From the NCBI GenBank assembly GCA_946699065.1, contig CAMPDV010000143.1, positions 558,001 through 622,000 on the forward strand: a stretch of 64,000 bases of DNA, given 5' to 3'. This DNA is from Loxodes magnus. Taxonomy: Eukaryota > Ciliophora > Karyorelictea > Loxodida > Loxodidae. Position 1 is the stretch's first letter. Every line of letters begins with the position of its first letter. A program made the translations under genes and the position numbers. This document shows, piece by piece, positions 5,803 through 61,884 of the stretch. The notes under the pieces were generated by a model. That model was not told the DNA's origin. It ran no database searches and saw only the letters and a list, made by a program, of their open reading frames with translations.

Positions 5803-8148
5803 ATGGAATATTAACTTTAGTGTTAAGTTCACAATCTCAACCATGAATTTTTATGCGTCTAGTGCTTTAACCAATCAACCAAAAAAGGAGAAAATACGTT
5901 TTTGTTTTGTAAGAACTGTCTTCCTTCTCATTATCATCATGGAACTAAAACTTTCGTTGAATGCTTTAACTAATTCAAGTTGAATATTCAAAACTTCGAA
6001 AGCGATATAATAAACTACTAGTAGAACTTGCAGGAAATCTTGAAAATATTTCAATCTAATTTGACTTTTCTAGAGAAACTTAGCAACTAATAATCCTAGT
6101 AGGCTTAAAATTAATCCTTTGTTTAATCCTAAATCCTGTAAGTTAAACAATGCTAGTAAAACCTACAAAAGTTAGAAGAATAAATTTAGGAATGCTTGAG
6201 TAAATAAATCCCCTCAGCTTATAGCGACTTTCCTGAATTCATGCAATTTGCTTGGCTATACAAAGAAGTTAGCAACTTGTCAAATCGTCTTGCTTTCCTT
6301 CCCTAAAAATAAAACTTTTTGATTTATTTTTAATCTTCTAGTGCTGAACAGAATCAGAAATACATTCCTGAAGTTTTCAAAATGAAATTCAATAGTGAAG
6401 AAGCATAAATCCCACTTAGCAATAATGAGCAACTCTTTATATAATAACAAGAGTAAGAATTGAAGAGAGTAAGTGAAGAATGCGAAAAGCAGAAAAAGTA
6501 GTTAGTCGATAGCATTGATTAGCAATTTTTCGAAGATTAGAAAAAAATCTAAGACTTATAGTAGGAAAATGAGTAACTCTTATAACAAATAAAAGATCTA
6601 CAGAATAAGGTCTAGGAAAAAAATATATAGACCTTTGAAAATAATCTACAATAAATTTAGTAAAATAGGAATGAAGAAATGTCAAAAGAGATAGAAAAAA
6701 TTCTCCCTTAGATTTAAAAGAAAAATCAATATAAATATAAAATATATGATTTTAAAGAAAAAAAAAGTAAACGGGAATGAGTCAAAGATACAAAAAAAAT
6801 GATAGCTGATTAAAAGATCTTTGAACTTCGTGATGAAAATTGTGAATATTGCACTCTATAAGGAGTATTACTACTTCCATGCAAGAGCAAACTTTGTATA
6901 AAGTGCTTAAGTGCTTCATCAAGATCCTAATTTAATTCAAATTTATTTTCAGATTATTATAAAAGCTTTACTAAGCCTAATAGCTAGAAAAAGATAGATG
7001 ATTTTTAAATCTTATGCCCTATTTGCTCAAATTTGATCAATTACTAAATTGTGAAATAAACTTTATATCAATATTGGGTTTTATAGACAAAAGAGTAGAC
7101 TATTGAAGCAATAAAATTACTATAAGAAACAAGTAACGATTTATCAAATTCCTTTGAAGAGTAAAACGAAGAACAAAATGAAGAATAGAATGAAGAGTAA
7201 AGTCCACTTGAAATCGAAAATAAGTAAAAAGTTTATGGAGAAAGTTTATTGAATAAACTTTAAAATTTGTTAGCATGCTAATTATGCAAAAAGCCAGACT
7301 TTTATAAAATTGACCTAGAATGCCGTCATTCATTGTGTATTTATTGTTTAATCAACACTTTAAACTAGTATTAAGCGAATTAAAAGAAGTAGCCATTTTA
7401 CTTTTCACAAAATTAGGGTTAAAATTAGGAATAAAATGAATAAACAAATAAAGTTTTAAAATGTCCAGTATGCTAAAAAGAAAGTGATATATCCACTATT
7501 AAGAATCAAATGATCAATTAGAGGGATAAAAACTATGAAGACTAGGACCAGAGTGCAAGTTATGATGAAACATCGACATGCATTTTATTTTGATACTTTT
7601 TTCCTAGAAACTTATATAATGAATCTTTTGTTTAAAATTTGCTAACTAAAAATGGAATATCAATTTCTAATGTATCTCTATAACCGTTTTACAATCCTCT
7701 TTTTATTTTATCCAAAACTAGCTAAAAATAAGCAACTCAAAGAGTATTTATTTTAATAATATTTTAAACTAAATACATTTAACTCTTACAATATCCGGCT
7801 TGCTCTCTACATATTTTAAGCTTACTTTTTAATTAAATTAATAATTATCTATAAACTGTGAAATTACGTTTATAAGTTCAGATTTACAAGATTTTTAAGA
7901 AGAAGATATCTTTAAAGACTATCCAACATTCATTCTTTAGTATGATGTACTCTAGTTAAATTAAAATATATTAAATGATGTTCAGTTTTCTATTTCCAGT
8001 TTCATGCACTAATCTTAATCTATACACAGGAATGTCTTGGTTTATTATTGATATTTAGTTTTTTCATTTTGATGTTTGGCTTTCCAAAATTATTTAATAT
8101 ATTAAAAAAATTAAAATAGCTAGAGAACATATCAACTAGTATAAATGA
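5803..8148 (+). CDS. TRIM-like protein: B-box zinc finger, coiled coil, two RING-type fingers
   Basis: About 781 residues, one uninterrupted frame from ATG 5803 to TGA 8146-8148. Residues 6-50 form a B-box-like zinc site (Cys-x2-His-x7-Cys-x2-Cys followed by FCKNCLPSHYHHGTKTF). A Gln/Glu-rich coiled coil follows (about 60-330). A first RING-like finger starts at Cys347 (CEYCTLQGVLLLPCKSKLCI) and closes with CPIC near 405. A tandem Glu-Glu-Gln-Asn repeat lies at 7165-7200. A second C3HC4 finger starts at Cys492 (CQLCKKPDFYKIDLECRHSL) and ends with CPVC near 549. The C-terminal 200 residues are hydrophobic and unassigned. RING fingers usually recruit E2 enzymes, so ubiquitin ligase activity is likely. 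TGA encodes Trp at least twice, in KREW (6778-6780) and LFWYF. Two widely spaced RING fingers are unusual for a TRIM protein. Confidence 0.85.
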
Positions 8149-13282: not shown

Positions 13283-16200
13283 ATGTATACCTTAAGGTGC
13301 TTTATTTGATTCTATCTGCTTACTCTTTGTTCCAGTTATTAAGTAGGAATTTTAAGCTCTAAGCATACACCTTCCGATTTGGAGGATTTTTTATCTCTTT
13401 AAATAAGTAAACTGCAGTTTGGCAATGTATCTTTAATACCTATTATCCATGAATTGAATAGCTATTACGAAGTTGAAGATATACTTAGCAAATGAAGCAG
13501 GATAAGAGTGAACTTAGTTATAGATATAACTTATAACGAAATTTATACCAGACTAATATCAAGGTCTAACCCTTATTTTATCATAATAGTAGCTTATAGG
13601 AACAATTATCCTAAATTTGGTTCAACTATCTTCAATGCTTTGCCTAGTTTTAAGTAAGAAGGAAAAGCTCTAATAGCCTTATATGAATATCTGGGGTTTA
13701 ACAAAATTGCTTTGATTTCATAAAATGAATAAAGATTTTATAAGCCACTAGAAGAACTCAGCTACTAGAATAGAATAAAGGTAAGTGCGAATATCAATAT
13801 TCCTATTAATTCTTTTTATGAGAAGGACATAGAAAGCTGTAATAATTTTTATTTGATAGAAAGACTTTAAAAGGAATTTCCTAAAGCTATAAGACTAACT
13901 GGTAGTCCTATTATATCCCTAGCAAGTGATATCTGCTGATAAATTTATATTCTTAGATTAGCAACTTTAAACGGATTTACTTCAGCAAAATTTGCTTGAT
14001 TCTTAACCTTATAATCCTCAAATTTACTACATCCTGAGATTATGAATGTCGTTTCAAGTGAGTAGATAAATAAGTTTCCTCTTGATATTTTAAATAATGG
14101 ACTTATAGCTTTAGCTCCCTTAGGATATGTCTTTAAAAACCAACTAGATTTCACTTACCATTACGTTTCTAAAGCCCTTCTTCTTGCAGATTCCATTTTC
14201 TATATTAGCCATTCTGACTCTTTTATTAATGCTTATCTAAAGGCTAGTAAATCTCTATTTAGGGATAACTAGCTAGTACCTGATTTTTCTGTTTATAATA
14301 TGTAAGAAAGTTAGCTGATTGAAGTGCTATAAATAAGGGATTTGGATAGAGTAGTTTAGATAAGAAGAATAGTATGGTGTGAAGGATCTTAAATACCTCC
14401 GTCAAATAAATTACAGATAGAATTTAGCTTCTCCACTAATAAAAATGAACCCTATGGAGAACCTGATTACTAAGCAACTGTAGCTCAAAGTGCTTTCATT
14501 CCTTGCTTAGCTAATTATATTAACCAGAGTGATGAAATATTACCCAATTATATGTTCAAAGCCAATCCTATTTCATATGGATGCTTAACTTTTGATCCTG
14601 CTCATGTTTATGGTGTTTTAAACTAAAATTCTGAGAATTTAGGTGTAGCTCATTTTGGATCATTAGCCATATACACATGAGCTAAAGTCTACTACGTTTT
14701 CTAGAGTATGAACTTAGATCTTCCTTATATTTTATCCACACGAGAAGACTTACTAAGCAATTAAAAATAGTTCAGCAATGTGCTAATAAACTACGCCTCA
14801 TATAAGCAATGAGCCAATATAATCACACAATTCATTCAAAGGAAAGGATGATAATAGTTCGGGCTATTGGTATAAATAACAGAAAACGCTTAGAAGTATA
14901 TTCATGATGATATAGTAAAATGAGCCAATCAAACAGGGAAAACAATATTGAATTCTCAAACTGAATACTTATTAACGTATTAAGGGGATCATGATATAAA
15001 TATAACCTAAAGTATAGGTAGGGAATTGATAGAAAGAGAAATCAAAATAATAGTTCTTATTTATAATGACATCCTTATCTATATTGCTGATTTGCTGTTC
15101 GATTTAGGATATAAGTAAGGAGACTTTAACTTTATTACAATGTATCCTAGTGATTTACTTTTTGGCTAAAATCTTGATGATGATAAAACATAAAAAATTA
15201 AGAAGTTGATATTTGGAGCAGTTTTAGTCTCTTTAGAGGAGTGGGTAGGAGAAGAAGGACAGAAGTTATATTAGCTTTAAAAATAATGCTTTCCTTATAT
15301 AAATGTCATTTGCTAAATATTTGAAGTACCTTTAATTATAGCTAGAGGCATAGAAAATGCAATAAATGCTGGGTTAGACTACTATGATACTACTAATCTG
15401 ATGAGAAGTATAAGAAAAGGAGGATATTATGGCTGTTCAGGTAATATAAAATATAATTTGGATGATAACTTTAGAGATATTAATAGCATGATTCTTAAAA
15501 ATGAAGTTTAGAACTCTTAAGGAATGCCTTAGCAAGTGGGTAGAGTAATTTACTGTGTAACTTGCTCTATAGTCTGGCAAAAGATTGAAGATGATTTTAT
15601 TTGAAATGATAATACAACAAATGTACCTAAAGACTCTTTTGATAAATTTAACGACTAATGTGATTTTACTGATAGAAGAGTCTATGAATTTAAACCTGGA
15701 TAATACATAATAATAATCACATCTCTATCACTTCTACTAATCGCTCTTATTTCTGCCGTTATCAGCTTAAAACTTTGGAAAAATGTAAGATTTAACGATA
15801 TAAAAGAAAAGGATTTGCTTTCAGACGAAGATCAATTATTTATATTGATTTTATTAATCCAAGCTTTATAGTATTTAGCTTTAGGGCCAGATTTAGAATT
15901 AGTCAGTTAATATATTAATACACCAATCAAATTTTTTACTATAGATATAATGGAAATAATTAGTTACTAGAATGGTAGTGCTTTTTGGATTCTAACTAAG
16001 ATTCTTATAGCAATTGCTTTCATAAGCCTTTTATTGTTCGTATTCTTTATCTGCAAATTCGAAATAAGATTCAAAAATAAGGTTCTGTAATGTCTTGGAA
16101 TGATTTCCTTCAATTTTTCTTTACTTCTTAATGAAGTATTTTTCATTCCTATCATTTATAATCTAATGCTCGTATTTGAATGCTATTATGGAAGGGATAT

Positions 16201-17842
16201 CAACTTAGATGGGAAAATTAAATTGGAAGAAAGCTTTACAGCATAGGATTGCTAAACTAAATGTCTTTCATCCAATCACTTAACTATCTTCATTTTATCC
16301 TTGATAGTTTTATTCTTCTATGTTCCTTTAACCATTTTTGCAAAGCCTCACTGATAATGTATTTCTGAAAGCTAGCATATAAAGGAACAGCCTTGATTCA
16401 TTATAGCAAAATCTTTTTTGTAGGTTTTGATAATTTTGAACAATATAACCCTAAAGAAGCATTACTCTACTACTTATAGCTTCCTCCACTCTAGTTTGAT
16501 TTTACTGTTTTTGGTAATAATCAGCAAAGGAAAGCCTTTAACCTACAAGAGGTTTAATTTCATATACTAAGTAGTGCTATGATGCCTCTTTATTACTTCC
16601 TTAGTAGTTTCTATTTACATTAGCATATCAGAATAGAAAAGAAAGATACTCCTACTCCTGCTATGCCTAATCATATCAGCCATCTTAATTTTTGGTATTT
16701 TCAGACTTAGAAAATATTTAGCTTATTTAGAAGAAATTACTCCTGATACTGTTAATCTATTCCGCTTTGCTTTTAGAATAAATGCGAGAGTGGAGTTATT
16801 GTAAGAGCATATAAGGATACAAAAGAGAAGAATAGATCTAGGACTGTAAAAGATAAAATAGAACCTAAGAAAGAATTCCCTTTTTATAGACAGCAATGAT
16901 GTGCTATAGCTATAATTACAGAAATACAAAAATACTAACTTAACTAGCATCTAATAAAAACTCGATCTTAGTATGTCTTCTCTTGACTAATCTCTAGATA
17001 ATGCAGAAAATAAACTGGGCTAGTCTATGAATAAAACGATTCTTGGGGATAGTATTGATAGAAAATAAACTGAGGAAAAGATTAATGAAGGACAAGTTTT
17101 ACGATAGCAAGAGGAAATCATCTAAAGTTAGCTTGACATTAATTAAGTTGCTTCTTGTAATTTATCCGAGAGCTAAAGCATCAATCTTTTAGAAGATTCT
17201 TCAGATCATATAGAATAAAAGGGTTTAAAGGAAATATAGAAAGAAAGTGAGTAAGGAAGTTTAGAAGAATAAGAAGAGGAAGAATATTAATTAAAAGCAA
17301 AACCTGGTAACATCTCTTTAGAAAACAAAGTTATATAATACAAAAAAGAGACTTAAAAGTAAGGCCAAACAAATAAAACTAAAAAAGACGAGCAAGAAAG
17401 TAGCAGATAATACTAGATTAAAGAAAACAAGAAGCGCATGAAAATTTTAAAGAGAAGCTTTAAAAACAAACCTTAACTGAACACTTAATCAAAATATTTA
17501 ATCCATTCATTAAAACTAAAAGTAGAGCGAAGTTCCAAATTCCTCAAAAATTAAGAAAGCGTGCTCTCCAAATTTCTTTTAAAGGCTCATTATTTTCCAA
17601 TCTTATTAGAAAAAACAATAAAACAAGGTAAAAGGATTAAGGCATCTTTTCTTCATTGCTTATATGATAATTTCTTATATAAAGTTATTTTTAATTTACT
17701 AAGCTAATCCTTTATTCTAGCTCAAAAGCAGCATCAAATAGCTCTTTTGTAAATTTAATTTTACTAGTTTTTTAAATAAAACTTACTTAAATTGGAATGC
17801 TATAGAATTACTATACCTTCAAAGAAAAATAGAGCATAATGA
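13283..17842 (+). CDS. Receptor-like protein: signal peptide, periplasmic-binding-type ectodomain, polytopic membrane domain, acidic tail
   Basis: At least about 1,500 residues. The start is set by a clear signal peptide, MYTLRCFIWFYLLTLCSSYQ. Two lobes resembling ANF/GABA-B-type ligand-binding domains follow: YEYLGFNKIALISQNEQRF near 145 and FIQRKGWQQFGLLVQITENA near 520 match the strand-turn before each Rossmann lobe. From about residue 810 there are eight or nine membrane segments (first LSLLLIALISAVISLKLW). Between the fourth and fifth lies DINLDGKIKLEE, a perfect EF-hand-like calcium loop, inside a Cys-containing loop. The tail is Glu/Gln-rich. About twelve Trp are TGA. Role by family inference: ligand sensing at the surface, possibly calcium-modulated. 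The frame closes at TGA 17840-17842, but a 19-nt intron at 17749-17767 probably joins it to further coding sequence. Confidence 0.82.
17749..17767 (+). other. Candidate 19-nt intron
   Basis: The sequence GTAAATTTAATTTTACTAG has GT and AG ends and removes one base of frame (19 = 1 mod 3). Splicing it joins the receptor frame (ending IALF) to a downstream frame with coding-type composition (FLNKTYLNWNAIELLYLQ). Its size matches the other candidate introns in the window. Confidence 0.5.
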
Positions 17843-19334: not shown

Positions 19335-20729
19335 ATGAAAAAATGCTAAAGGAATTATTAACAATGCAAAAAGCATTACGAGCAGATAATAAGTTTTTGT
19401 CCATAAGAATAAGTTTCCTTATGCAAAGAATGCGAAGAAGCTTAAGATATAAATCACCCTTTAAAGAGCATATTGTAATAAAAATCGGAAATAAAGGCAA
19501 TTCTTTATTAAACATTTGCTCAGTTGAATTCTCAAGGTCAAGATATTGAATAAATAGTAAATCAATTCAAAGTAACCCAATAAACTATTAAGGAGATTTA
19601 AAGTAGCTTCTAAAAGTTCTTGAAGCATCTGATTGAGAATAAAATAAAAGATATAATCTAAAAGTAAAACCAATACTAGTTAATTGTCTAAAGCTTATTG
19701 AACGAAATCTATTAAAACTTAGATGAAGTTTCCAATACTTGATAGAAGCTAAAGAATGAATATCAGTCAAATGATGTTTATGAAAACGCTATGATGCTTG
19801 AAAATCTTAAAAATCTATAGAACTAGAATTAGATTTGAAACTAAGCATTCGAAAATTATTCTAATTTCCTATTTTTAGAAAACAACAACTCGTTTGACGA
19901 TTTTGAGATTACTATTAACAATGAAATAAGACTAATAAAATTAAAGCTGGCAAGTATAGTTTCTTAGCAAGATAAGCTAAAAGAATTATTGCTTACTAAA
20001 CTAAACACTAGTAAATTGATGATTCTAGAGCTTAATCAAATGAAGCTAACTGACTATAAAATTATAACTAAACCTTATGCCAATTAATACTGAGCTTTGC
20101 AAATAGACGCTGAAAATTTAATTATCTCAGGAGGGAAATAAAGTGAAAACAGACTAACATTGATAAAGAATCTTAACGCTTAAGAATATTTTTCGCTATT
20201 TGGAAGAATAAATCATGGAATAACTCATTATTAAAGTAATTTCGTATTTCTGATAGCTGGTATCTATTCTAACTAAAAGTGCGAGTTTTTTAATATACAA
20301 AGCACTAATAAAAAAGAAATTGCCTGCTATCCAGTTTAATCTGAAAACCATGGATGTGAGTTCTTTTAAAACTATCTCTATAGCTTTGGAGGTATGTATG
20401 AAGGGGAACTAAAGAATAAAGTTTGATTTTATTCAGTAGAAAAGAACGTTTGAAACTAGCATTCGAAAACTCTACCTAGAGGATCAACAACACTTTGTAC
20501 AAAACTTCCACATTCAGAAATTTTCGTCTTTCAAAATTACAACTAAGAGTTAAAGAACATCTGCTTATTTGATGGAAAAATAGTCCTTGAATTCTCGGAT
20601 GATTTTGATAAGTATATATGTAGAAATATCCCTATTTACGCTAGAGAAAAAGTCTACTTCTACAATTAGCATGATGAAATGTTTATATTCGATATACGCG
20701 AAAAAAAGTGGAACTAGCAAACTTTCTGA
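19335..20729 (+). CDS. B-box, coiled-coil, kelch-repeat protein
   Basis: 464 residues, ATG 19335 to TGA 20727-20729, no intron. Residues 10-50 form a B-box-like zinc site: CKKHYEQIISFCPQEQVSLC followed by KEC and a His. A coiled coil follows, about 60-230. The C-terminal half carries kelch-type blades: LIISGGKQSE, FLIAGIYSNQKCEFFNI, YLYSFGGMYEGELKNKVWFY, and VEKNVWNQHSKTLPRGS. Two diagnostic kelch Trp codons are TGA (20424-20426 and 20451-20453), direct evidence that TGA is read as Trp here. Kelch blades bind partner proteins and B-box proteins are often ubiquitin ligases or scaffolds. There is no RING finger, so any ligase activity would need a partner. Only about four blades are evident; the frame stays open to about 20956 if the TGA is Trp. 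Confidence 0.85.
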
Positions 20730-20911
20730 AAGCTTTATTAACTAAAAATTTTTATTTAAAATGCCCAATTAAATAATTAAAAGCCCATGCCTTTCATAAT
20801 ACTTTAGGTCCTTTAATTATACTTTTCCCATATATCTTAAAAGGATTTTCGTATCTTACATTTTAGCTTTTTGCAAGTAATTAAAATAATAGCTATTGAC
20901 TTAAACTAGCA

Positions 20912-33576: not shown

Positions 33577-33925
33577 ATTATAGAGCGCGTAGCACTCTCG
33601 TTGTTGCGCAGCTCTTTAAATTAATTTTATTTAATGTCAAAAATTTTTTATGTCTCTCTATCCTTGTTTTCTCTTCCTGCAGTATGTTCCTGTAATTTTT
33701 CCTTCCAAAGCATAGGATGCAATATGCGATTACGGGTACATTTCCCCGACCTATGATGAAGAAAGTTTCCTCCTGGCATTCAGAGTTCCCCAGCTTGTCA
33801 CATCCTCTTTCTCTTGTCATTGGCTTCTCTTCCTCCGATTTATTCTCCATCAGCGCTCATTTTTTGTTGCCTTGCTGGGCCTCCAAGCAGCATCCGAAGG
33901 AAAGGGCTTTCCACCCTATTTAAAT
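33577..33925 (-). mobile_element. Short interspersed element, copy S1
   Basis: About 350 bases, much richer in GC than its surroundings and nearly the same as S3 at 50598-50965 in the opposite orientation. On the minus strand it begins GGGTGGAAAGCCCTTTCC. It contains a structured core at 33711-33755 (stem CATAGG/CCTATG). It ends with AAAGAGCTGCGC ... GCGCTCTATAATC and an AT-rich simple tail. A 90-residue standard-code frame spans it, but the conserved stems point to RNA. It is probably a SINE-like or LINE-derived non-autonomous retroposon; no RNA polymerase III boxes were convincing. Confidence 0.65.
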
Positions 33926-34534: not shown

Positions 34535-35478
34535 TAATAATAATAAAATTAAGTTTGGCAATCTTGGAGGAATTTCACCTCTTCCTGCCGATCGCCGGAT
34601 TGCTCCGGGATTATATAAAAATGTTTAAAAATTTGATATCCTCTCTCTCAAACTTGGTCATATTATCTTTCATTCTGTTCTGATTTCTTTCTATAGATCT
34701 TGCCAAGCTCATTCATATAAAGTCTTTCTCTATCTCTTCTCTATTATAGTTGATGTTTTTTTCCTTTATTGCGCTTGTAATTTTCTTTGCTTTGTTCAGT
34801 ATTAATTCTTGAAACTTAGGAATTTCTTGCATCTTCTTCATAAATCTTTTCCCGAATTACAATAATAACATTTTTTCGGAATTCTTTTAGGTTTTTTTGT
34901 TTCTTCCTTCTCAATCACCATTAGATCACTTCTTTGCTCATTTTACTCTATTTTTCGTTGCAGTTTCTCTTCTATTTTTTCAAGTCTATAGTCCAGTTCT
35001 GTCTGTTTCTGAAGTTAATTTTGGATTAACCACTCTGATCTTGTGATATGTTCCAAAAAGCGCTTAGTTCACTTTTCTAGAACATAAGTCTTTATTCTAT
35101 TCCTTCTGCTAGGTTAAACTGTTGCATTAGCTTCTCATTGTCCTTCTTTAGCTTCTTAATCTCTTCCTGGAGATTTAGTACTACTTTGATGAGCTATTCT
35201 ATGCTCATTTGGTCAGAAGGATTAAATTCTGATACCTCCTAGTGCAAAGCAGACTTCGTCTGCTTTCTAGGTTTCTCCTGAGACGTTGGCGTGATTGCAT
35301 GGGTGATTTTCTTTGATTACTTCTGTTCTTCTTGAACCGATGTTCCGGATTATTAAGAAAAAGGCTAGGGTTAATTAAAAGAAGACTGGCTGAGAGTGGC
35401 TTCTGGTTTCCTCTCCTTCTTGAAGGTGAAGTAGAAACCTTTTTTGAAGCCTTCCATTTTTTAATTAATTTATTACCA
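34535..35478 (-). mobile_element. Gag-like ORF1-only retroelement, copy E, with target-site duplication
   Basis: Inserted in copy 1 of the duplicated block; copy 2 preserves the empty site at about 59707. It is flanked by a near-perfect duplication (TATTACCATTTTTTAT / TATTACCATTTTTATG). Read on the minus strand, ATG 35457 starts MEGFKKGFYFTFKKERKPEA. The conserved coiled-coil motif EVSEFNPSDQMSIEQLIKVV then LNLQEEIKKLKKDNEKL follows, then (after a frameshift) a knuckle at 34870-34829, CYYCNSGKDLWRRC, with Asp for His. The 3' end has a GC-rich hairpin (CCGGAGCAATCCGG) and an ATT tail. It is complete at both ends yet lacks any endonuclease or reverse transcriptase. Confidence 0.72.
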
Positions 35479-48771: not shown

Positions 48772-49078
48772 TTTCTATTCAAACTAATTAATAAGAAGCT
48801 TATTTTATTTCATTCTTTTAATTAGTAAAAGTTTAAAGAAATCCTTTTTTGATTAAATGTAAGTGAAAAACAATAATTAATAACACTATTAGTTTTATAT
48901 ATTGTCTTGTTTTAAGATAAAAATAGAATTTTCAAATAAATGTTTAAGAAATAAGATACTTATAAGTATAATTAATAAATAAATAAATTGTTTAATTGTA
49001 TTGAAATAAAGTCAAGAAAATTATTAAGTGAAGTTATTTTAATTAAATAGTTATTAAAATAAGTTATAAAAATAAAAA

Positions 49079-50141
49079 TGGAGAAAAAAGAAAAGTAATT
49101 TACTAAAAGTATTTTTTTAAGAAAACTCCTAAGAGCGAGAAACCACATCCTAGGGAAAATATCTCTTCTTCATTTTAAGTATGAAATTCTACCCAACTTA
49201 TGCTACTAGAAACTAATAAATAGGATCAGTTATGACCAAAGTAAAGGTATTTCTTTAATATTTTTTAGATTAAGTCATTACTGACTCTTCAGCTATTAGA
49301 TCGGTAGCCATATCAAGTGACTTGAGTTGAATTGTATCAGGTTCATGAAATTCTGAAAATTCTATAAAAATCTGGAATTTCCAGACAGGTTCTCTCCTAA
49401 GAACTATAACAGGAAATACTTCTCATGTTTGATAGGTAGTAATCTCCCCAGACTCTAGCTTTATCAGCATCTGGTGATTACTCCATAAAAATCTGAAACT
49501 CCTAGACTGGTTCTCTCATTAGAACTTTAACTGGACATTCTTGGGCAGTTAGATCGGTAGTAATCTCCCCGGACTCTAGCTATATTGTATCAGCATCTTA
49601 CGATAACACCATAAAATTCTGAAATTTCCACAATGGTGCTCTCCAAAGAACTTTAACGGGGCATACTCACTGAGTTTACTCGGTAGTAATCTCCTATGAC
49701 TCTAGCTATATTATATCAGCATCTTACGATAAAACCATAAAGATCTGGGATTTTTAGACTGGTCAGCTTGTACGAACTCTTTTTGGGCATTCAGACTATG
49801 TTTCATCGGTAATAGTGTCTAAGGATAATAATTATATAATATCAGGTTCTGGTGACAAGACAATTAAGATATGGGACTTCTCAACTGGTTAGTGTATTCG
49901 TACTCTTCAAGGTCATACAGATGGTATACCAAGTATTCAGTTAAGTGTTGATTCAAGTGTTATCTTTTCTGGTTCTTATGATTCAGCAATCAAGATATGG
50001 AACTTTGATACGGGTGAGTGTATATAGACTTTATAAAGGCATACAGATGGAATATCTTCTATAGCATTGAGTGCTGATAATAAATGGTTAGTATCAGGAG
50101 CGAGTGAAAAAACGATTAGAAAGTGGAGAATTTCAAGTTGA
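49079..50141 (+). CDS. WD40-repeat protein
   Basis: ATG 49079 begins MEKKEKQFTKSIFLRKLLRA. A 22-nt intron (49247-49268) joins it to about eight WD40 repeats, ending with GASEKTIRKWRISS and TGA 50139-50141. Clear repeats: GHTHWVYSVVISYDSSYIIS, ASYDKTIKIWDFQTG, GHSDYVSSVIVSKDNNYIIS, GSGDKTIKIWDFSTG, GSYDSAIKIWNFDTG. In-frame TGA stands at the invariant repeat-ending Trp of IKFW (49620-49622) and in HTHW (49671-49673), so TGA must be Trp here, while the final TGA coincides with the domain end. One frame break of four bases lies near 49470, inside the third repeat. WD40 propellers act as scaffolds for complexes. A related, more decayed gene is at 31590. Confidence 0.8.
49247..49268 (+). other. 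Candidate 22-nt intron
   Basis: GTATTTCTTTAATATTTTTTAG has GT-AG ends and a T-rich interior. Removal joins SYDQSK to DQVITDSSAIRSVAIS in frame, linking an N-terminal leader to the WD40 domain. Confidence 0.6.
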
Positions 50142-50597: not shown

Positions 50598-50965
50598 AAT
50601 TTAAATAGGGTGGAAAGCCCTTTCCTTCGGCTGCTTGGAGGCACAGCAAGGCAACAAAAAAAAGAGCGCTGACGGAGGATAAATCAGAGGAAGAGATACC
50701 AATGACAAGAGAAAGAAGATGTGACAAGCAGGAGAACTCTGAATGCCAGGAGGAAACTTTCTTCATCATAGGTCGGGAAAATGTACCCGTAATCGCATAT
50801 TGCATCCTATGCTTTGGAAGGAAAAATTACAGGGAGGTACTGCAGGAAGAGAAAACAAGGATAGAGAGACCCATAAAAAAATTTCGACATTAAATAAAAT
50901 TAATTTAAAGAGCTGCGCACATACGAGAGTGCTAAGCGCTCTATAATCCAATTTATTTATTCATT
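50598..50965 (+). mobile_element. Short interspersed element, copy S3
   Basis: Nearly the same as S1 (33577-33925). It begins GGGTGGAAAGCCCTTTCCTT at 50608, carries the structured core at 50767-50811 (stem CATAGG/CCTATG), and ends AAAGAGCTGCGCACATACGA ... GCGCTCTATAATC with an ATTT-type tail. It abuts, and may have truncated, the ORF1 element on the opposite strand at 50970. Confidence 0.65.
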
Positions 50966-59600: not shown

Positions 59601-60489
59601 GAATTAAACAGTTTTCTATACCTAAAGAGTAGTTAATTAGGTGGCTATAATGGCTGAATATTCATTAATATTTCACTTCTTGATAGAAATATCATAAGAT
59701 TAATATTATCATTTTTTATGTTAGAGAATTTATTAAGTTATTCTTAATCAGATAAAAAATTAGAATGAGTCCAGTTGGAATTATTCGTGCTTAATCTATA
59801 TGTTATCCAAATTATCTCTAAATGTATCCGAAGAGTCATTAACGCGGCAGATTATTTCATTTTTATAATGCCTGATTTGTAATTTTTAAAATGTCTCTCT
59901 AAATAAAATTGATATAGATTATTCTTATTTCTTTGATGAAGTTTTCTACTTTATTTTTTAAATTTACTTATTTTAGAAAATTTTATTTTCTGTTAATTTT
60001 ATTAATTCATTATATTTTCCTTTCTTTACTTCATCATTTAACATCTCTCCTAAAATTTTTATTTGGATGTTGCTTAAATCTTACTATTTTATCATGTTAA
60101 TCTCTAAAAGTTATTATAATTGAATTTAGATATAGGTATAGCTTAATTATAATTTGATTATATTTTTGATTTTATTAGATAAATAATAGAGAATCTAAGT
60201 AGTACTTGTATAATTTGAATATAAGAATGAATTTAAAGATAGCTTGATTATGTTGCATATAAGTATACTATAAGCTTTATGTTTGTATCTGAATAATGAT
60301 AATGTTTGAATAATAGATTTTTAAAGATGTTTAGATAAAATATTATTCTTTATTTATTTCAGACGCTTTAAATATTTTAAAATATAGTAGTAAATTTACC
60401 TAATTATAGATCTTTAAACTACTTCTTTACATATTAAATTATATTTATAATAAATACTATTAATAATATAAATATTATTATTATGTTTA

Positions 60490-61884
60490 TCAGTTATTAC
60501 TTTTAATACTTCTATAACTCAATTTTTCTAAATCAATCCTCATTATTGAAACTCTTGGCTATTCTACAGCAAAAACATATCCATAGTTATTTCTTATTTT
60601 CATCTCCATCAAAGTTTCAACATCTTTAAAAATTTAACTTTATTGCCATTATTATTTGCTTCTTTTATATATTCTTCTTGAATATTCTTTCGTAGAACAA
60701 TTTTTACCACCTCCAAAAATTACAAGAGGCTCTAAAGAAACTATAGGCATAGAAACACTTTCAGGAAGATTTAAATTTTACTTACTCCATCTATCATTCT
60801 ATATTTTATATTTTCATATATCTTTTAAAGATTTTACTTTCTAATTTACGCCTCCAAAAGAATAAATATTTTATTCATCTTTATCTACTACTAAAGTTTA
60901 ACATGCTATTTAAAATGGAAACTAAGTACTGTTTTATCATTTACTTTAGTTTTCTATCTTTAACTTTTCTACTGATTATAAAGCTTGATAATTATTAGTA
61001 AATCCTCCAACCACATATAGATATTTTTAAGCAACTGCTATTCCAAAGTAACCTCTTCCCTCATTTAGATCACTAAGTTTTATACTATTACCTTCATAAT
61101 CAAACTATCAAGTTTCTTTTATTCCTTTCTTTTAATTTATGTTTAATCCTCCAATTAAATATAACTTATTTTAATGCTCTATACTTTTACTAGCGTCTGG
61201 AATTATAATTTAAACTTAGACTTATCGTATTTACTCTGTTTAAATATTAAATAAACTTAATTTTTAAATTCCATAATCAAAGAAGTGAATATAGTTAGAT
61301 TATATAAAGTGTTAGCTTAGTTTATCTTAATTAGTCTAAATCTTATTTGGTTACTTAGTGTTGTATTATAGTTTTTATCTTATTAGATTGTAAGTTAATT
61401 TAGACTTTAGTATTGTAGGTGGTTATTCGTTATATTAGAGTATAGTTGGTTTTAGTGATTAGTAGAATTAGATAATATTTGAGTGTTATTTTTGGTAGAT
61501 AAATGTTGGTTAATGATTGATGATGATATTAGTTAGTGGTATTATGAGAGTATTACTAATGTTTGATTATTTGGTTGTAATGGTTTTAGATTTTTCCATA
61601 ATTTACCTCCTTATCTCTTTTAATTTCTATCTAGCATCTTAAATCTTTTATATGTATTATTAGTTTTAAAATATCACTCTTATTAAATCACTTTCTTAAG
61701 GTAAATCATCAAATCTAAAATGGAATCCTTTTTAACAAATAGGACATTACATTATGCCTTATAATCAGTACTGAGTATTCAAACACAAACCACAGTAAAT
61801 ATGTCCACAAGGTAAGACAGTTGGAAGAGCATTAGTTAAGTTGTAATCTTCTAAGCAGATTAAGCATTTTGGTAACGCTTACAT
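60490..61884 (-). CDS. RING-kelch protein, copy 2
   Basis: 464 residues, ATG 61884 to TGA 60492-60490, the same length as copy 1 and fully open. The RING finger and linker are nearly the same as copy 1. The kelch half has mostly conservative changes (for example YLYVVGGFTNNYQ against YLYVVGGSTSNYQ, IYSFGGVNQ against IYSFGGLNQ). The Trp in KETWQ is TGA here (61110-61108) but TGG in copy 1 at the same offset. Both copies terminate at TGA in the same position, supporting TGA as the real stop. Probable ubiquitin ligase, as for copy 1. Conserved length and conservative substitutions suggest both copies are, or recently were, functional. Confidence 0.87.

Follow-up and report, generated by a model that had tools for sequence, protein, structure and literature searches.

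A WD40-repeat gene carrying all three stop codons

How is a gene read that holds TGA, TAA and TAG in frame and nevertheless ends at a TGA? The question is posed by a WD40-repeat gene copy (49078..50141, forward strand) in a 64,000-nucleotide stretch of Loxodes magnus DNA (assembly GCA_946699065.1, contig CAMPDV010000143.1, positions 558,001 to 622,000), the whole of which we call the window. A first-pass annotation, made from the sequence letters, had proposed that TGA means both tryptophan and stop in this gene, and had flagged as an inference that the DNA belongs to a karyorelict ciliate. Both proposals are borne out here, the former by kinase genes, the copies of the WD40 gene and the end of the release factor gene, the latter by the agreement of the published karyorelict code with what these same three gene sets indicate. 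Judged from sequence comparison, the window is almost certainly Loxodes magnus nuclear DNA under NCBI table 27, an ambiguous code in which UAA and UAG would be decoded as glutamine, UGA within coding sequence as tryptophan, and UGA at the end of a gene as termination. The dual meaning of UGA, together with the use of all three stop codons as sense, is real and is already known for Loxodes, hence not new: table 27 has been described for karyorelicts including Loxodes, with UGA as the sole stop and also as tryptophan where the poly(A) tail is sufficiently far downstream (PMC11441545).

The WD40 gene and its copies

The gene copy begins with an ATG at 49078, one nucleotide before the start first assigned to it (49079), and ends with a TGA at 50139–50141. 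Sequence, frame logic and an alignment of nine copies predict a 28-nucleotide GT..AG intron at 49241..49268 (forward strand), whose excision brings the N-terminal frame into the WD40 frame. Such an intron would belong to the long tail of the length distribution, exceeding 93% of published L. magnus introns, which have a mean of 19.3 and a mode of 17 bp and are at most 25 bp long in 93% of cases (PMC11441545). The window copy is a frameshifted member of its family: a deletion of five nucleotides, with its junction at 49461..49462 (forward strand), breaks the reading frame, and the five nucleotides are present in all eight other copies that were read.

That family is dispersed and multi-copy. 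A DNA search of the assembly gave at least 40 scored matches (a lower bound), made up of the window copy, nine others at 98% and 30 at 85–86%, and the copies differ by fast-changing codons within conserved repeats. From the 39 other copies we read eight (L094–L101; three of the 98% class and five of the 85–86% class), and these plus the window copy are the nine copies referred to throughout. Long, near-identical WD40 repeat arrays also occur on contigs C1503, C119, C9, C272 and C620, many of them at steps of 126 bp (42 codons), a period that matches the repeat period of the window gene.

UGA inside coding sequence

The positions of TGA in the WD40 gene were compared with 120 external homologues, aligned to a query that carried X at every stop codon. 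Two in-frame TGA codons on the forward strand fall at the tryptophan that ends a WD40 repeat and are invariant in nine of nine copies. At the one at 49494..49496, six of the eight homologues covering the site have W; at 49620..49622, which had been singled out as a repeat-ending tryptophan from the outset, 56 of 66 do. A third repeat-ending position, 49998..50000 (forward strand), is TGG in seven of the nine copies, the window copy included, and TGA in the other two (L094 and L097), with W in 95 of 97 homologues. The second TGA that the first-pass annotation had read as tryptophan, at 49671..49673 (forward strand), does not sustain that reading, as it occupies a variable position that does not define tryptophan: five of nine copies have TGA and the other four TCA, TAC, CCA and TAT, while the 90 covering homologues have G, S, A, T and N as their commonest residues. 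The codon at 49328 is TGA in eight of nine copies and TAA in one. When the repeat region (49464–50138) was scored against the WD40 profile PF00400 under three readings, TGA as tryptophan gave 193.4 bits, as arginine 186.0 and as X 184.6.

A survey of kinase genes across the genome points the same way. Among 136 scored matches to the kinase family, 91 contain at least one TGA and only one lacks stop codons altogether; together they hold 157 TGA, 323 TAG and 603 TAA. Five kinases (232–249 bits) were fetched out of ten chosen for high TGA counts (3–4 each), and each was aligned to its best solved kinase after all its stop codons had been set to X. Their kinase domains contain 17 TGA codons, of which ten align to W, one each to I, L and G and one to a gap, with three outside the alignment; both TGG codons in these domains align to W. 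Ten tryptophans at 14 sites corresponds to P of about 1e-16 at a tryptophan background of 1.3%, a rate that we chose ourselves.

UAA and UAG

The meaning of UAA and UAG (UAR) is carried by a different gene. The UAR sites of the WD40 gene show mixed residues among the homologues (P, E, K, R and T are the commonest at single sites, and Q makes up 12% of the alignment cells at TAG) and are not diagnostic of glutamine; among the copies TAA exchanges with CAA at four codons and with GAA at three. Nor do the kinases settle the matter, their TAA sites being aligned to mixed residues with K the commonest (six) and Q at three.

In the gene for the release factor eRF1 (L061), which matches chain 4d5n_A (presumably the human eRF1 sequence) at 532.6 bits, the 19 aligned UAR codons stand at nine Gln, three Lys, three Ser, two Glu, one Val and one Thr. 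It is this alignment of the release factor that settles UAR as glutamine. The initial claim that TAA and TAG stand at glutamine positions throughout overstates the case for the WD40 gene, with its mixed residues; the glutamine reading is owed to the release factor, aided by the TAA/CAA exchange. A second eRF1 copy (L062) lies on the same contig, C196, 35 kb from the first. The best match to the eRF1_1 family was another locus, L060, which to judge from its sequence is probably Pelota.

UGA at the ends of genes

The TGA that closes the WD40 gene (50139..50141, forward strand) directly follows the last repeat, as had been noted at the outset, and is invariant in nine of nine copies. Whether codon-type constraint ends there was examined in six copies, namely L094 and the five read copies of the 85–86% class. 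Differences at codon positions 1, 2 and 3 run at 0.118, 0.099 and 0.174 over codons 1–346, and at 0.129, 0.200 and 0.142 after codon 347. Synonymous and nonsynonymous codon differences stand at 633:974 in frame, at 347:1291 and 295:1379 in the two shifted frames, and at 25:183 past the TGA. The coding pattern stops at this TGA. Sense UGA has been published as rare across the roughly 20 codons preceding the stop under table 27, and the closest upstream in-frame TGA here, tabulated for seven of the nine copies of this one gene family, lies 30–173 codons from the stop, consistent with such a depletion.

Both eRF1 copies end in DEDFL followed by TGA, at the expected C-terminus, and neither contains an internal TGA. 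With the WD40 copies, and with a second kelch gene of the window whose end is a candidate, these are the few gene ends that were seen, and they are all TGA.

Kelch and receptor genes of the window

Other genes of the window also bear on the tryptophan reading. In the kelch gene region at 20103..20742 (forward strand), the TGA codons at 20424 and 20451 fall on kelch tryptophan positions, and the Kelch_4 profile scores 38.5 bits with tryptophan against 32.9 with Tyr, 32.5 with Cys, 29.1 with X, 27.6 with Arg and 26.5 with Gly, in keeping with the tryptophans first proposed for this gene. A second kelch gene region, at 60301..61500 on the reverse strand, is absent from the first-pass annotation; it has TGA at 61110, 60939 and 60816 in tryptophan-like positions and a candidate stop TGA at 60492. 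Kelch_4 again scores best with tryptophan (51.9 bits, followed by Tyr 48.1, Cys 44.0, Leu 40.9, X 39.5, Ser 37.1, Arg 36.3 and Gly 35.5), and PF24681 hardly separates tryptophan (78.2) from Tyr (78.0).

The receptor gene with an ANF-receptor domain (13502..17500, forward strand) forms one long frame; counted over about 13380–17700, it holds 11 TGA, five TGG, 52 TAA and 25 TAG codons. Of eight readings, tryptophan gives the best score with the ANF_receptor profile, 42.0 bits against 31.9–38.3 for the other seven, and the 11 in-frame TGA codons agree with the earlier estimate of about a dozen read as tryptophan.

tRNAs, release factor and a possible mechanism

A pattern search of the genome for tRNA-Trp gave 140 places, against seven in the control. 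Among the 100 of these that were listed, 96 share one identical stretch of 30 bases, 48 of them on contig C67 and 48 on C148. We read 36 copies on C67 in full: 35 are identical and one lacks a base close to the D stem. All 36 are tRNA-Trp(CCA) and share one anticodon arm, whose stem has four pairs, with A27.C43 unpaired. A 4-bp stem in Loxodes tRNA-Trp has already been reported (PMC13092985, PMC12005148). By analogy with published work on other species, a tRNA-Trp(CCA) with such a stem, present in large tandem arrays, would read UGA as a near-cognate codon. The form with a 5-bp stem was found at one of the 100 listed places and is seemingly rare.

A search for a UCA anticodon, in one tRNA shape, stayed at background level (22 matches, control 26), and no tRNA(UCA) was recognized at the 11 of these matches that were examined. 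Among the tRNA patterns, a first one, too narrow at positions 37–38, had returned 21 matches against 44 in the control, and none was a tRNA by ARAGORN. For UUA and CUA loops there were 68 matches, fewer than the 136 of the control; one of the four fetched, L110, is a tRNA with a UUA anticodon, and it would carry glutamine. Neither ARAGORN nor Rfam recognizes two others, CUA-loop matches on C245, as tRNAs. L109 (C1668:14600-14720), on a different contig from L110, is a near copy of it with an anticodon loop of eight bases containing TTAA, and may be a pseudogene or an odd decoder. An Rfam search for tRNAs gave 63 matches, and in the 30 loci cut out from these (L009–L038) ARAGORN shows only Lys and Ala tRNAs. 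The tRNA-Lys genes adjoin tRNA-Ala genes in several of these loci (on C64, C78, C93 and others), and on C78, C103 and C158 the spacing of successive tRNA matches is regular.

The GTS and NIKS motifs are intact in the eRF1 protein, but four residues depart from the mammalian sequence: Glu55 is Ala, Ser60 is Gln, Ser70 is Ala and Tyr125 is Phe, the residues being numbered by offset to 1dt9_A. Such a factor would accept only UGA, and tRNA-Trp would prevail over it everywhere but close to the poly(A) tail. The parts of this scheme differ in support, the 4-bp stem of tRNA-Trp coming first, the UUA tRNA next and the eRF1 changes last. We offer only tentatively, as a rather doubtful proposal, that the double meaning of UGA is tuned by tRNA dosage, with an amplified 4-bp-stem tRNA-Trp outcompeting an eRF1 changed at Glu55, Ser60, Ser70 and Tyr125 except beside the poly(A) tail.

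Weighing the reading against decay and related codes

Several observations weigh against table 27 with UGA as tryptophan. The WD40-type profile PF24817 scores the WD40 gene lower with tryptophan (131.6) than with X (158.6), and Kelch_6 places tryptophan (31.0) under six of seven other readings of the second kelch gene (Cys 34.2, Tyr 34.0, Arg 32.5, Leu 32.4, X 31.7 and Ser 31.2). Single-base exchanges at TGA among the WD40 copies lead mostly to codons other than TGG (TCA four times, TTA three, GGA two, AGA two, TGG one and TAA one); the scarcity of TGG would follow from the many TGAs that occupy fast-changing positions. There is also a lone tRNA-Trp(CCA), L093 (C110:470000-470240), whose anticodon stem has the normal 5 bp and whose T stem contains a mismatch. 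As to the UCA matches, 11 of the 22 lie in loci without an ARAGORN tRNA and the remaining 11 are unread. Finally, the assignment of tryptophan to UGA comes from the comparison of sequences.

A sceptic might see in the in-frame stops nothing but pseudogene decay, in a window that is rich in repeats and whose WD40 copy is broken by a frame-breaking 5-nucleotide deletion, the family itself having 40 or more genomic matches. Yet the two TGAs at tryptophan positions are invariant in the eight other copies read, which lack the deletion, and third-position differences dominate among the copies, with the in-frame excess of synonymous changes given above (633:974, against 347:1291 and 295:1379 when shifted). 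Beyond this family, the five kinases at 232–249 bits have TGA at tryptophan positions of the kinase domain and eRF1 has 19 aligned UAR codons. As a general account decay is refuted by the kinases and eRF1, and it holds only for the window WD40 copy as a broken gene; we regard it as a very improbable source of the in-frame stops. Much the same standing, highly unlikely, falls to the Condylostoma code (table 28), under which UAA and UAG would also be stops. Its sense readings, as published for Condylostoma (PMC4967479), are identical to those found here, and Condylostoma magnum resembles the present case in that all 64 codons can be sense and stop depends on context, as that paper describes. The difference lies in termination: UAA and UAG also serve as stops there (PMC4967479), whereas TGA stands at the expected end of the few genes whose ends were examined here (eRF1, WD40 and the candidate second kelch), and UGA is presented as the sole stop of Loxodes in the account of its code in PMC11441545.

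The code of Blastocrithidia (table 31), in which UGA is tryptophan, UAR is glutamate and UAA is also stop, we consider least probable. The second kelch gene is nearly indifferent to it, since reading UAR as glutamate instead of glutamine changes Kelch_4 from 51.9 to 50.9 and Kelch_1 from 46.6 to 48.1, here in favour of glutamate; and TAA exchanges with GAA at three WD40 codons against four with CAA, which does not decide. What speaks against table 31 is that eRF1 places UAR at Gln in nine of 19 sites and at Glu in two, and that TGA, instead of TAA, closes the genes whose ends were seen. The two systems are alike in part: Blastocrithidia combines a 4-bp-stem tRNA-Trp with Ser70Gly in eRF1 (PMC12153298), and Ser70 (human numbering) is changed here too. 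They differ in that UAR is Glu and UAA a stop there and the eRF1 residue is Gly, according to PMC12153298, whereas it is Ala here; and the unpaired bases of tRNA-Trp are A27.C43 here but 26C.42U in Blastocrithidia, as quoted in PMC13092985. With the table 27 karyorelicts (Loxodes and Parduczia), in contrast, the present case shares UAA and UAG as sense, UGA as tryptophan inside genes and as terminal stop, short introns and an AT-rich genome. No difference was found from the code as set out in PMC11441545, in which L. magnus is itself the published example.

Further features of the window

The region called a RING gene in the first-pass annotation is a cysteine-rich stretch at 6301..7300 (forward strand). 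A Pfam search of it gave no match, and its TGA at 6778, which had been cited as another tryptophan and lies outside the cysteine cluster, thus tests nothing. ARAGORN and Rfam (at the gathering threshold) found no tRNA and no other RNA family in the window, and a gene finder based on codon usage, with a small training set, returned few window genes. The same GC-richer sequence occurs at 33651–33893 (reverse strand) and 50608–50874 (forward strand), with a near-identical peptide in one frame, and constitutes a dispersed repeat. A CYYCNSGKD stretch within 34638–35346 (reverse strand) is reminiscent of the zinc knuckle of retroelements.

Significance for Loxodes

Considered as a discovery, the reading of this window adds little to what is published for Loxodes. 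Its interest is rather that a rare genetic code was recovered from raw sequence alone, without tools, and that the follow-up provides an independent check of the published code, in which the forms of tRNA-Trp, a UUA tRNA and eRF1 are set side by side in one genome.
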